From a virus: a DNA stretch of 25,694 bases. Shown here piece by piece: positions 10,019 through 25,694 of this stretch. The stretch spans positions 1-25,694 of the IMG/VR virus record IMGVR_UViG_3300035389_000028; one strand, 5' to 3'. Made by a program: the position numbers and the translations under genes. Each line of letters starts with the position of its first letter. Within the stretch, counting starts at the first letter, position 1. Under the pieces are notes generated by a model. It was not told the DNA's origin. It saw only the letters and a program-made list of their open reading frames with translations, and did not search any database.

Positions 10019-10318
10019 TTAAAACATCCTTTGCTCGGGGTGATATAGCTTATCTAACGGTTCTAGTAAGTCGATTATTTCTACTAGCTTGCAAGGTATC
10101 GTAGCCCAACCTCCAGAATAGGGATAACCTTGCGTTTTCCACCTCTGGTAAAAAAGAAAAGAGCTGATAGCTAGTTCATCACTTAGGATTGACGTTATGC
10201 TATCAAGCTCTACTAAATCATGATTTTTAAGTTCTAAAACTCTGTCGCAATAGCCATATTTCCGCTTATATTTCGTTGTATACCCTTCACACAAAAGACA
10301 ATATAAGCGGGTTATTAG
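10019..10318 (-). CDS. T part of the tail assembly chaperone G-T, made by -1 frameshift (99 aa extension)
   Basis: This frame has no ATG and no ribosome binding site at its beginning; the first possible start would be a TTG at 10292-10294. It continues without a stop from the A AAA AAC slippery site at 10318-10324 at the end of the upstream gene. A -1 slip there gives a fusion of 109 + 99 = 208 residues. In many siphophages the G and G-T proteins coat the tape measure protein during tail assembly; the order tube protein - G - T - tape measure is exactly kept. The extension contains a Trp-rich C-terminal half (RWKTQGYPYSGGWATIPCK) and ends next to the tape measure start. Confidence 0.88.
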   Translation of the reverse strand, partial: LITRLYCLLCEGYTTKYKRKYGYCDRVLELKNHDLVELDSITSILSDELAISSFLFYQRWKTQGYPYSGGWATIPCKLVEIIDLLEPLDKLYHPEQRMF

Positions 10319-10324
10319 TTTTTT
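10262..10324 (-). promoter_or_regulatory. Programmed -1 frameshift signal
   Basis: Slippery heptamer A AAA AAC (10318-10324) in the reading phase of the G gene, followed by the stop TAA. After a 7-nt spacer comes a perfect 11-bp stem, CCGCTTATATT with AATATAAGCGG (10300-10310 with 10262-10272), around a 27-nt loop. Heptamer type, phase, spacing and stem all fit known -1 signals. Confidence 0.92.
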
Positions 10325-10644
10325 TCTTTAAAATCAAAATTAAATTCGCTTAGAACTTTTTGACAAACTTCATGAACTAATGCTCGAGAGCCAGGAAGAC
10401 CTGGTAATTCTCGTTCAGTTACTTCGTTGTTATTGTCAGATCTAAAAATTCCTTTAACTTTTAAAATGCTTTTTTTGTAGACCTCTGAATCTGTCATTGA
10501 ACTTTTAATAAACCCTTCAAAATCCTCTGAAGACGGAACTTTATAAGTTACCTCAACTGTTGATTCTTCTTTTTCTTCAATCTGTTTGGCAGTTCTACAG
10601 CATTTAGGATGAAAGGTTTTTTCACGTTGAATTGATATAGTCAT
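10315..10644 (-). CDS. Tail assembly chaperone G, 109 aa
   Basis: Short protein between the tail tube gene and the T frame. It is the non-shifted product; the shifted one is G-T. The N-terminus begins TISIQREKTFHPKCC; the C-terminal half is helical and charged and ends FDFKEKN, where the last three codons GAA AAA AAC form the slippery site. Its ATG overlaps the stop of the tube gene (one shared base). Family-level sequence is poorly conserved, so the call rests on gene order and on the frameshift signal. Confidence 0.85.
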   Translation of the reverse strand: MTISIQREKTFHPKCCRTAKQIEEKEESTVEVTYKVPSSEDFEGFIKSSMTDSEVYKKSILKVKGIFRSDNNNEVTERELPGLPGSRALVHEVCQKVLSEFNFDFKEKN

Positions 10645-11030
10645 TATACTTTAGCTGCCTTTGTTAATTCGCCAGTACCTTTGCCTGTGAAGTCTAATTT
10701 GATAATATTCCCACGTTCCAACGGAATACTGTTACTATCAAGAAGAAAAACTCCTGATAAAGTTAGATTGCCAGCATCTGCTTCGAAAGAAACCTCTTCA
10801 CCATTTGCATCAATTAGCAGTTTTCTGTTTTCATCAGTGTAATCCAAATTACATGTTCCAGAGACAGTAAACGAGTGAGTGCCACTAACGTTTTTATCCC
10901 ATTTTTGGCCGAGTTCATTATCTGCTTTAATATCAATTGCTTCTTTTACTGTGAATTTCTCACAGCAAGCCAATTTGCTTGGTATAGTTCCGATTCTTAG
11001 TTCAGCATCAATTCCTGTATATGTTGCCAT
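10644..11030 (-). CDS. Major tail (tube) protein, 128 aa
   Basis: A beta-rich protein of small tail-tube type: MATYTGIDAELRIGTIPSKLACC, then residues 40-100 with HSFTVSGTCNLDYTDENRKLL and LTLSGVFLLDSNSIPLERG, ending TGKGTGELTKA. These are typical for tube subunits, which stack in hexameric rings. AAAGGA within the end of the preceding zinc-ribbon gene serves as ribosome binding site. It lies directly before the G/G-T chaperones and after the tail terminator gene, as expected. At 128 residues it is at the short end for the family. Confidence 0.85.
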   Translation of the reverse strand: MATYTGIDAELRIGTIPSKLACCEKFTVKEAIDIKADNELGQKWDKNVSGTHSFTVSGTCNLDYTDENRKLLIDANGEEVSFEADAGNLTLSGVFLLDSNSIPLERGNIIKLDFTGKGTGELTKAAKV

Positions 11031-23602: not shown

Positions 23603-24034
23603 TTAGAATAAAATACTAAGAGATGATAAATAATCTTTATCATAGTCAAGTTCATAATTTCCACAAAAAGAAATTAAGTTTTTAGGTTGAGCTTGCCCAG
23701 GAACAGGTAAATTAAATATATTTTGAAAATAACCATATTCTTCAGATATTGAAGTTACTTTATCAACTCTAAGTAAGTTATATAAAAGAACACCTTTTGA
23801 ATTATGATGTTCACGTCTTGATACCGTATATTTAATATCATCTTTCTTGAAAGTGACATTCTCATAGATAGAGTTAAAAAAGGATCCAACTGTATCTCTA
23901 TGTGAAATTCCTTTCTTGTCTAAGAGTTGTCTTAGCTTAGACATCTCCTTAATTAAGTTCTTTTGCATTTTTAATTCCTCTTTGTTTTTTTGAACAAAAG
24001 TAACAAGATCTTCTTTTTCTCTAGGTTCAATCAT
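23603..24034 (-). CDS. Unknown early phage protein, 143 aa
   Basis: Start taken at ATG 24032-24034; a GTG six bases upstream is also possible. Residues 1-45 are a charged coiled coil (LVTFVQKNKEELKMQKNLIK and EMSKLRQLLDKKG); then a mixed alpha-beta part with DIKYTVSRREHHNSKGVLLY and a Tyr/Phe-rich end. No motif recognised. The start overlaps the excisionase-like gene end by 8 nt. Confidence 0.65.
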   Translation of the reverse strand: MIEPREKEDLVTFVQKNKEELKMQKNLIKEMSKLRQLLDKKGISHRDTVGSFFNSIYENVTFKKDDIKYTVSRREHHNSKGVLLYNLLRVDKVTSISEEYGYFQNIFNLPVPGQAQPKNLISFCGNYELDYDKDYLSSLSILF

Positions 24035-24221
24035 CAACACTTAGCTGTGTTGTTTTCTTTACATATTCATCTAAATCGGCTAGATGAAACCTTATTCTTG
24101 TGTTAACTCGGAAAGATGAGATTTTTCTTTGATTAGCCATCCTCCTTATTGTGCTTGTGGAAATTTTTAGATAATTAGCAGCTTCTTGAACTGTGCATAT
24201 CTTGTCTTCTTCTTTTTGCAT
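24027..24221 (-). CDS. Excisionase-like HTH protein, 64 aa
   Basis: MerR-type/excisionase DNA-binding domain: TVQEAANYLKISTSTIRRMA (residues 10-29) is the helix-turn-helix, followed by the wing ISSFRVNTRIRFHLADLDEY (34-53), the usual R..R..DLxxY ending. AGAGAGG precedes the ATG. It is the first protein gene after the tRNA-like region. It may act as Xis or as an early regulator; no integrase is seen in the window. Confidence 0.82.
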   Translation of the reverse strand: MQKEEDKICTVQEAANYLKISTSTIRRMANQRKISSFRVNTRIRFHLADLDEYVKKTTQLSVDD

Positions 24222-24244: not shown

Positions 24245-24346
24245 AGACATGAGCGGGATTCGAACCACGCATATAAGGTTGCGACCCTTTGCACTATTCC
24301 TTCTTTGTGCTATCAGCCTATAAATGCTAGTACTTTCCTAGCAGTC
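24245..24346 (-). ncRNA. tRNA-like module 1 (three-armed, degenerate acceptor) with leader hairpin
   Basis: Minus strand: leader hairpin GCTAG-GAAAGTA-CTAGC (24326-24342), 6 nt, then acceptor 5' side AGGCTGA (24313-24319), TA, D-arm GCAC/GTGC with a GG-containing loop (24291-24310), anticodon-type arm AAGG-GTCGCAA-CCTT (24275-24289), and T-arm GCG(T)GG-TTCGAAT-CCCGC with one bulge (24253-24270). Acceptor 3' side TCATGTC pairs only at three or four positions. If the 7-nt loop were a real anticodon loop, the anticodon would be CGC (Ala). Probably a degenerate tRNA or tRNA mimic. Confidence 0.6.
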
Positions 24347-24408
24347 AAAACTCTTCCAAGCTTATGTAGGTGACAAGCCTCTAGGGTTTACCATTATCAT
24401 GCAATTTT

Positions 24409-24424
24409 ACTGTTTGCAAACAGT
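24409..24424. repeat. 16-bp perfect palindrome
   Basis: ACTGTTTGCAAACAGT reads the same on both strands. It lies between tRNA-like modules 1 and 2. It may be an operator or form a small hairpin; no T-run follows. Confidence 0.5.
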
Positions 24425-24444
24425 GAATTAGTCAAATTCAAGGT

Positions 24445-24516
24445 TAGTAACCAGTGGAATTGAACCACTGTAAAGCCTGGTTACTTAATTACTACGCTAG
24501 TACTTTCCTAGCAGTC
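24445..24516 (-). ncRNA. Miniature tRNA-like module 2 with leader hairpin
   Basis: Minus strand: leader hairpin GCTAG-GAAAGTA-CTAGC (24496-24512), 2 nt, acceptor 5' AGTAATT (24487-24493), 17-nt middle AAGTAACCAGGCTTTAC, T-arm AGTGG-TTCAATT-CCACT (perfect 5 bp, 24453-24469), acceptor 3' GGTTACT (24446-24452), then A. The acceptor pairs with two G-U pairs; a second 5' strand, AGTAACC in the middle, pairs perfectly. The middle can form GTAA-CCAGGCT-TTAC. Body 48 nt; no D-arm. Confidence 0.6.
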
Positions 24517-24705
24517 AACAGAAATAATCAGCATGATGAGTCAGTTCGGTCACCTGTTTTTATGACTTACGTTACCGCAATAGTTACCCTCCAGGACTTA
24601 ATAGAAATTACCTCTCTTCTCACTATCTTCTCTTAATTTTTAACTCTTTGCTTTTTCTATAAAGCGCAAGTCTATTGTTAAGCGGTTGATTATTGGGTCA
24701 ACTCT

Positions 24706-24780
24706 AATAGCAAAAAGGACTTGAACCTTAATGTAAGCTTGTTTACTTAGTTGCTATTCGCTAGTTCTTTCCTAGCAGTC
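24706..24780 (-). ncRNA. Miniature tRNA-like module 3 with leader hairpin
   Basis: Minus strand: leader hairpin GCTAG-GAAAGAA-CTAGC (24760-24776), 2 nt, acceptor 5' ATAGCAA (24751-24757), a 20-nt middle with GTAA-ACAAGC-TTAC, T-arm AAGG-TTCAAGT-CCTT (24714-24730), acceptor 3' TTGCTAT (24707-24713). The acceptor pairs at all seven positions although its sequence differs from modules 2 and 4, which suggests maintained pairing. Body 51 nt. Confidence 0.6.
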
Positions 24781-24847
24781 AAACGGTTCATTTTTCAATT
24801 TATTTAAAGTCTTGAATAAAATAGCCATTAAAAGAAAAATCGGACTT

Positions 24848-24919
24848 TAGTAATTGATGGAATCGAACCATTGTAAAGCCTGTGTACTTAATTACTACGC
24901 TAGTACTTTCCTAGCAGTC
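24848..24919 (-). ncRNA. Miniature tRNA-like module 4 with leader hairpin
   Basis: Minus strand: leader hairpin GCTAG-GAAAGTA-CTAGC (24899-24915), 2 nt, acceptor 5' AGTAATT (24890-24896), 17-nt middle AAGTACACAGGCTTTAC, T-arm ATGG-TTCGATT-CCAT (24856-24872), acceptor 3' AATTACT (24849-24855), then A. All seven acceptor pairs are Watson-Crick. Very similar to module 2, with matching changes in the acceptor. Confidence 0.6.
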
Positions 24920-25072
24920 ATTAATATTTGCATGTTTTTATTATTCAGGACACTCTAAATACAAAAAATACTCTTCCTGATACAGTCTCGGTTTTATAAT
25001 GTTTTAATTCAGTGACAAGTTAAAAACCGTTAAAAGTGAACACTCTACAATAAAAAGGGAAACCTGAAATAT

Positions 25073-25240
25073 TTACGGAGTATCTATATCTTTTTTTAAT
25101 TCTTCTCTAACTAATGAACCTAACCACCACTGGAATGAGTATCCATGTCTTTTTGCATATTGTTTAGCTTGTATCTTTACTTCTTTAGTTAGTTCTATTT
25201 TTACGCTAATAGCACCAATTACATGTTTTTGTGTATTCAT
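25073..25240 (-). CDS. Small ribbon-helix-helix-type regulator, 55 aa
   Basis: ATG 25238-25240 to TAA 25073-25075. Sequence: a strand AISVKIELTKEVKIQAKQYA with the following helix, then HGYSFQWWLGSLVREELKKD as second helix: a short ribbon-helix-helix-like layout. It stands in the Cro-like place, divergent from the repressor. No Shine-Dalgarno is seen; the predicted -10 lies only 6 nt before the start codon, so the mRNA may be leaderless. It may repress lysogeny genes or autoregulate. Confidence 0.72.
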   Translation of the reverse strand: MNTQKHVIGAISVKIELTKEVKIQAKQYAKRHGYSFQWWLGSLVREELKKDIDTP

Positions 25241-25328: not shown

Positions 25329-25694
25329 ATGAAAAACATTAATGCTTATACTTTTTGGAACAGACTTGACGATTTAAGAGCTCAATTAAATATTGCAACG
25401 TTAAAAGAGTTGTCTTTAATTACAAATATAAATTATAGGAAAATAAATGGTCAGAGGACAAATATGTCAATTCCTAAATCTGAAGATTTATTTACTTTAG
25501 CTACTGCTTTAAATGTCTCAATGGAATATTTATTAACTGGAGAGCCAGTCAAAGATAATAAGAAATTCTATCCAATTAGAATAGAAGTAATAGCTGATAA
25601 GCTTTGTAAGGTATCAGACCAGAATTTATCATTGATAGAAAATACAATCAATCTAATGCCAATAGAGGATAAATCCATAAAAGTAAATGTCGTA
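25329..25694 (+). CDS. CI-like XRE-family repressor, N-terminal part (cut by window edge)
   Basis: 122 codons are visible from ATG 25329. An N-terminal helix (YTFWNRLDDLRAQLNIATLK, residues 7-26) is followed by a helix-turn-helix of XRE type: ELSLITNINYRKINGQRTNM (27-46), then SIPKSEDLFTLATALNVSME and YLLTGE, a typical end of this domain. The rest, from KFYPIRIEVIADKL, begins a second domain and leaves the window. It is the only plus-strand gene and diverges from the early operon, as phage repressors do. No Shine-Dalgarno is visible before the ATG. Confidence 0.88.
   Translation, partial: MKNINAYTFWNRLDDLRAQLNIATLKELSLITNINYRKINGQRTNMSIPKSEDLFTLATALNVSMEYLLTGEPVKDNKKFYPIRIEVIADKLCKVSDQNLSLIENTINLMPIEDKSIKVNVV

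Follow-up and report, generated by a model that had tools for sequence, protein, structure and literature searches.

The stretch of viral DNA analysed here (the window, 25,694 nucleotides) carries on its minus strand, between positions 24245 and 24921, an array of four perfect hairpins of the form TGACT-GCTAG-GAAAGWA-CTAGC, each standing before a tRNA-like fold, and the analysis shows this leader hairpin to be a previously undescribed RNA element that unrelated phages of very different bacteria have in common. The anticodon stem-loop is missing from three of the folds, the mini-tRNAs, and is present in the fourth module, a bulged cloverleaf. An earlier note on this DNA had described an array of four such modules, three of them miniature, and this description was confirmed by sequence scanning with a shuffled-window control.

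The 25.7-kb window is a siphophage record in which genes for terminase, portal, capsid and tape measure were identified, together with a divergent repressor-like gene, an excisionase-like HTH gene, a replication initiator and a DnaC-like loader. As judged from this sequence, the host of the array is a temperate siphophage and the array lies in the 5' part of the predicted early operon. Upstream of it, in a cro-like position, is a 55-aa ORF (25073..25240, minus strand) with a weak match to a PHROG of unassigned function, and directly downstream is the excisionase-like HTH_17 gene (24027..24221, minus strand); the divergent HTH repressor-like gene (25329..25694, plus strand) runs off the window. 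The roughly 850 nt between the 55-aa ORF and the excisionase-like gene contain no minus-strand ORF of 60 aa or more. A search for close relatives of the phage with TerL retrieved only loci 25-28% identical, the excisionase-like protein as query found none, and the array compared with phages by blastn gave no real match.

The four hairpins are found with zero mismatches at 24326-24342, 24496-24512, 24760-24776 and 24899-24915, and the window holds no further copy even when two mismatches are allowed. GCTAGGAAAGWACTAGC occurs in four exact copies, all on the minus strand and each preceded by TGACT, the conserved leader starting 5-6 nt 5' of the hairpin, at (N)TGACT. Against the motif model R1 the copies score 33.4-35.8 bits, all above 30, being themselves among the sequences from which R1 was built. 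Leader hairpin 1 (ATGACT-GCTAG-GAAAGTA-CTAGC; 24899..24921, minus strand; 33.4 bits) precedes mini tRNA-like 1 (24847..24897, minus strand), which has an 8-bp acceptor TAGTAATT/AATTACTA, an arm AAGT[ACACAG]GCTT, a T-arm ATGG[TTCGATT]CCAT and a trailing A. Leader hairpin 2 (TTGACT-GCTAG-GAAAGAA-CTAGC; 24760..24782, minus strand; 35.6 bits) is followed by mini tRNA-like 2 (24705..24758, minus strand), with the 8-bp acceptor AATAGCAA/TTGCTATT, the arm TAAGT[AAACAA]GCTTA, the T-arm AAGG[TTCAAGT]CCTT and a trailing A. Leader hairpins 3 (24496..24518) and 4 (24326..24348), both on the minus strand, share the sequence TTGACT-GCTAG-GAAAGTA-CTAGC and score 35.8 bits each. The third leads mini tRNA-like 3 (24444..24494, minus strand; 8-bp acceptor TAGTAATT/GGTTACTA, arm AAGT[AACCAG]GCTT, T-arm AGTGG[TTCAATT]CCACT, trailing A), around which single-sequence folding predicts long-range helix segments that would close it (AGGGT/ACCCT, ACTAT/ATGGT and ATCATGC/GCATGAT; 24383..24590, minus strand). 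The fourth leads a poor, degenerate full cloverleaf (24245..24319, minus strand) with the D-arm GCAC/GTGC, the anticodon loop GTCGCAA and a bulged U both in the acceptor and in the T stem. The T-loops of the four modules are, in order, TTCGATT, TTCAAGT, TTCAATT and TTCGAAT.

All three minis (51, 54 and 51 nt) follow the same order: (N)TGACT, hairpin, G, 8-bp acceptor, AAGT[6 nt]GCTT, a short linker, a T-arm with the loop TTCRANT or TTCAAGT, the acceptor 3' strand and an unpaired A. The earlier note had read a 7-bp acceptor standing 2 nt after the hairpin. The pairing with differing sequences and the constancy of the hairpin-G-acceptor spacing in all three minis were upheld, but the acceptor is best read as 8 bp and the distance as 1 nt (the G). 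Its observation that only 17-20 nt stand in place of the D and anticodon arms was refined: these middles have AAGTA..CARGCTT in common and can form a 4-bp, D-like arm, AAGU[6 nt]GCUU, while an anticodon arm is absent from all three.

A blind scan of the window for a T-arm together with a 7-bp acceptor, allowing linkers of 12-34 nt, returned exactly the three minis and one stray, compared with a mean of 0.17 and a maximum of 1 in dinucleotide-shuffled windows. Identity between the units is 78-89% inside the hairpin and mini-tRNA and 50-63% in the 60-nt flanks; therefore the hairpin plus mini-tRNA is the copied unit, which ends exactly with the tRNA-like fold. The acceptor of unit 2 differs in sequence from those of units 1 and 3 with pairing retained, and the changes between units 3 and 1 are paired or keep wobble pairs. 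Since RNAalifold of the three minis mis-registered the unit 2 acceptor through the alignment, acceptor pairing rests on the blind scan and this comparison of units. Single-sequence folding is strong for the hairpins and modest for the minis; units 1 and 3 fold weakly better than shuffles (z of -1.3 and -1.5), and in the fold of the whole region the mini pairing is not the minimum-energy one. The minis have the feature of tRNA (RF00005) that consists of a 7-8 bp acceptor plus a T-arm with a TTCRANY-like loop. However, the fourth module and mini 1 reach only 21.6 and 18.6 bits with the Rfam model, both below the gathering threshold of 29, and ARAGORN called no tRNA in the window.

The leader hairpin is far more widespread than the array. 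The initial pattern scan produced a single convincing match, an unrelated 54-kb viral contig (L003) with the identical 22 letters 30 nt upstream of a tRNA-like whose anticodon region is broken. Searching for the hairpin together with a T-arm brought up genes for tRNA-Trp, -Gln and -Thr that have TGAC(T/G)GCTAGGAANAGACTAGC 3-5 nt upstream. With looser pattern scans and blastn of phage records, the motif NTGACT-nnTAG-GAAnAGA (or GAAAGnA)-CTAnn turned up in at least 120 viral contigs and, among annotated phages, in those of Streptococcus, Acinetobacter, Proteus and Klebsiella and in crAss-like ones; membership was defined by NTGACT-nnTAG, a 7-nt loop GAA..A, CTAnn, a covarying stem and more than 30 bits with R1. 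It precedes scaffold/capsid genes in Streptococcus Javan phages, the small terminase gene in prophage-type contigs resembling Proteus phage V3 and tRNA-Arg in a crAss-like phage, and it is carried by the Acinetobacter phages Obolenskvirus and BS46 and by Klebsiella Asterion; cultivated carriers include the Acinetobacter phages XC1, Brutus and BS46 and Streptococcus lysogens. A plasmid collection gave few matches, in Proteus and Providencia. The single match on a bacterial genome contig (L013, 5266-5288, minus strand, from a Pusillimonas MAG) is enclosed by a 15-bp helix in surroundings that look like structured RNA and match no Rfam family; it may be either chance or real.

The hairpin is new in that no Rfam family matched it in the loci examined and its sequence was not found in the text of the open-access literature searched. 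In the same open-access texts, a search by concept, including anticodon-less phage tRNAs, gave nothing pertinent, so the earlier claim that no such phage array is known survives within that scope. The suggestion of a new small RNA family is supported for the leader hairpin, which is phage-wide, covarying and without an Rfam match.

Two outer stem pairs were left free in the scan patterns and could be tested for covariation, the inner three being fixed by the patterns. The second pair is kept in 32 of 32 distinct sequences as C-G, G-C, U-A, A-U or, once, U-G. Overall, 96.9% of cells in the outer pairs are paired as opposed to 82.7% in shuffles, and two-sided changes number 19 cells as opposed to 4.0 in shuffles and 0-3 when slid, cells being sequences and not events. 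The 7-nt loop has an invariant GAA...A and, as GA-[AnA]-GA, is likely to contain tandem sheared G-A pairs. Among non-redundant copies, 50 of 52 lie outside ORFs of at least 90 aa and on the sense strand, and neighbouring genes are co-directional with the hairpin in 39 of 43 cases upstream and 40 of 49 downstream. A helix that beats 95% of shuffles starts within 11 nt of the hairpin in 29 of the 52. This helix is interchangeable: it may be a tRNA (L036, L044, L050, L085), an aberrant tRNA-like (L003, L071, L101), a terminator, a long stem or another stem.

Sigma-70 promoters are not enriched directly upstream of the copies, thus the hairpin looks internal to transcripts. Reading TTGACT-N17 itself as a sigma-70 promoter fails for the same reason and also as no -10 consensus follows, and an operator in double-stranded DNA is ruled out by the covarying arms and asymmetric centre. 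The reading frame that begins at TTGACT is open yet short and not conserved, which speaks against a conserved mini-ORF. A host element was rejected as well: the pattern is absent from 368 Gammaproteobacteria genomes, apart from one chosen for its match, and the GCTAG stem form from 5,426 E. coli genomes. Nor is the hairpin a general tRNA leader, being found at one place only in phages with dozens of tRNAs, and it is not just a leader of tRNAs because copies also front non-tRNA helices.

In 1.8 Mb of phage loci, minis outside the window were found only in L036 and L030, and none in 465 kb of mononucleotide-shuffled sequence. Each has a single mini with a perfect 7-bp acceptor. That of L036, GATCTGG..CCAGATC, shares its array with two hairpin-led tRNA-likes; that of L030, GTCTCGT..ACGAGAC, forms the 3' end of an intergenic structured RNA, where 1 nt separates it from a preceding hairpin of a different kind. 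The exact unit of TGACT hairpin plus mini had no match in viral_contigs. The linkers of phages that carry dozens of tRNAs measure at least 36 nt, the L036 mini apart, which puts the minis beyond the usual range.

Other unusual RNAs were seen in hairpin-related loci. A tRNA in L048 (4567-4634, minus strand; Rfam 45 bits) has its anticodon loop cut to about 4 nt; before it stands TGACTAAGCTAGATAACTTCTAGC, a hairpin that has the stem in common but differs in its loop. None of the six canonical-looking tRNA genes of the L003 phage has the hairpin; this phage also carries, roughly 700 nt upstream of its hairpin-led aberrant tRNA, a tmRNA (10317-10693, minus strand; Rfam 76 bits). A group I intron (L085, 3550-3819) lies near the hairpin-led tRNA-Arg pair of the crAss-like phage cr128_1. 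In Streptococcus-type phages (L084, L089, L128, L137, L202) a second short hairpin, about GNC-CTGnnnAT-GNC-(A/G)TAAAAC with an apparently covarying stem, follows the TGACT hairpin and terminator, before the scaffold/capsid genes. In Acinetobacter phages (L083, L087, L203, L204) the TGACT hairpin is surrounded by a structured non-coding region of roughly 500 nt, with a TTGATCG..CGATCAA domain and then a long stem AAATTTAGAGAAGTGAA/TTCACTTCATCTAAGTTT.

The minis can be likened to tRNA-like structures such as the tmRNA domain and mascRNA, without qualifying as members of those families. mascRNA/menRNA (RF01684, the RNase P product of MALAT1) is similarly short, with an acceptor, a D-like arm and a T-arm but no proper anticodon arm, and likewise adjoins structured RNA; however, it is a mammalian nuclear RNA without leader hairpin or array. 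The L036 mini reaches a sub-threshold 19.5 bits with RF01684 (gathering 42.5) and the window modules give no match at E<=5. The tRNA-like domain of tmRNA also has an acceptor, a D-loop and a T-arm without an anticodon arm, whereas an mRNA-like domain and a tag reading frame are missing from the minis, and neither ARAGORN nor Rfam finds tmRNA in the window. Armless mitochondrial tRNAs are miniature bodies too, yet they have an anticodon arm and decode. GOLLD and ROOL are large non-coding phage RNAs of unassigned function near tRNA islands (PMC12286853); Rfam gave no match for GOLLD, ROOL or OLE in the window or related loci.

Tentatively, we favour the possibility that the hairpin is a modular processing or insulating element of a non-coding leader RNA in which the mini-tRNAs are putative RNase P substrates, although we would not call this probable. 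Transcription of the array would yield a non-coding leader, in which each mini-tRNA would fold and be cut by host RNase P at the 5' end of its acceptor, perhaps with CCA tailing. The transcript would thus be split into pieces with a TGACT hairpin at each new 3' end, and the hairpin, stacked on the following helix, could act as a modular boundary against translation, exonucleases or termination. As the mini-tRNAs cannot decode, their role would be in processing or RNA function and not in translation. RNase P punctuation, already suggested in the earlier note, fits the anatomy of an acceptor plus T-arm 1 nt after the hairpin, and in favour of the whole reading we count the exact end of the copied unit at the fold, the pairing acceptors, the constant spacing and the phage-wide covariation of the hairpin, as well as the intergenic co-directional copies and their adjacent helices, the lack of promoter enrichment upstream, the copies before tRNAs and tRNA-likes and the minis in L036 and L030. 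However, RNase P has no part to play at the intrinsic terminators and plain stems that the same hairpin also fronts; therefore acceptor processing is not its general function. Moreover, the conservation of TGACT and the loop calls for a specific binding partner, which this explanation does not name, and the weak fold scores of units 1 and 3 and the minimum-energy fold of the region also count against it.

The position of the array fits this processing reading and antitermination alike. Antitermination is the main rival because the array, between the small cro-like ORF and the excisionase-like/replication block, occupies the position that nutR has in lambda and putR in HK022. The TGACT hairpin and its adjacent helix would then be a nascent-RNA antitermination or anti-pausing element acting on RNA polymerase or Nus factors, so that the polymerase passes terminators and untranslated RNA, and the tRNA-like folds would merely be the second stem-loop of the signal; we regard this as possible, if doubtful. 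In many copies 0-5 nt separate the hairpin from a following intrinsic terminator within a co-directional block. The boxB of lambda nut is a 5-bp hairpin with a GA-rich loop (GAAAA or GAAGA), which the TGACT hairpin resembles in stem, loop and operon position, differing in its 7-nt loop with invariant GAA...A and in its occurrence in phages of several phyla. The put RNA of HK022, also a nascent-RNA element of the early operon with two adjacent stem-loops, works independently of phage protein (PMC9378689), which would suit many host phyla. However, put is a defined structure of about 70 nt whereas the TGACT element is a 23-nt core next to interchangeable helices, and in HK022 25.0-31.5 kb, a record in which put is not marked, R1 gave at most 11.2 bits, as opposed to at least 31 for family members, with no sequence kinship seen. 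Furthermore, the window has no more boxA-like sites than chance would give (14, with 14.5 expected), and the array itself contains one site with 1 mismatch; the hairpin is usually present once per phage and four times here, and the conserved acceptor and T-arm pairing would be left unexplained.

It is unlikely that the element docks ribosomes, with a Shine-Dalgarno-like stretch recruiting the 30S subunit, the UUG of UUGACU near the start and the hairpin blocking or regulating initiation. All 14 non-redundant copies with at least 7 nt of 16S-tail complement upstream begin with UUG, compared with 14 of 30 copies with at most 5 nt, a correlation that is partly ascertainment, the first T being fixed in one search pattern. 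Against it, the tRNA-type, Acinetobacter and window copies have no Shine-Dalgarno-like stretch, and downstream of UUG the frame stays open only briefly and is not conserved.

Evasion of defence by means of phage tRNAs is known (PMC11555353), and the mini-tRNAs might be decoys or sponges for tRNA-binding enzymes or tRNA-targeting defence systems, which we consider quite improbable. Decoys for tRNA-cutting defence proteins, proposed in the earlier note, found no support, given that the minis have no anticodon loop. It is this loop that most such nucleases target, and the cases of evasion known to us involve complete tRNAs in place of cleaved ones, even though the minis retain the acceptor and T-arm, the parts recognised by RNase P, the CCA enzyme and EF-Tu. 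Equally improbable are decaying tRNA genes or attachment-site remnants of integration into host tRNA genes: phages often have tRNA 3' halves at attP, an excisionase-like gene adjoins the array and the fourth module is a degenerate tRNA, but decay would not preserve three units with the same architecture, spacing, middle arm and still-pairing acceptors.

We give not far short of an even chance to the broader view that phages have an undescribed class of cis-acting RNA with the TGACT hairpin at its core, which works through a machine found in all bacteria (RNA polymerase, the ribosome or RNase P). In this phage the hairpin would have been joined on four occasions to a tRNA mimic, in three cases one with no anticodon, so that the array would represent a new, non-decoding kind of tRNA. 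Its near letter-for-letter conservation with compensatory stem changes across Streptococcus, Acinetobacter, Proteus and crAss-like phages points either to a partner common to bacteria or to spread between phages. Phages would also build tRNA-like RNAs that are unable to decode, which raises the question of how an acceptor and T-arm are used outside translation.
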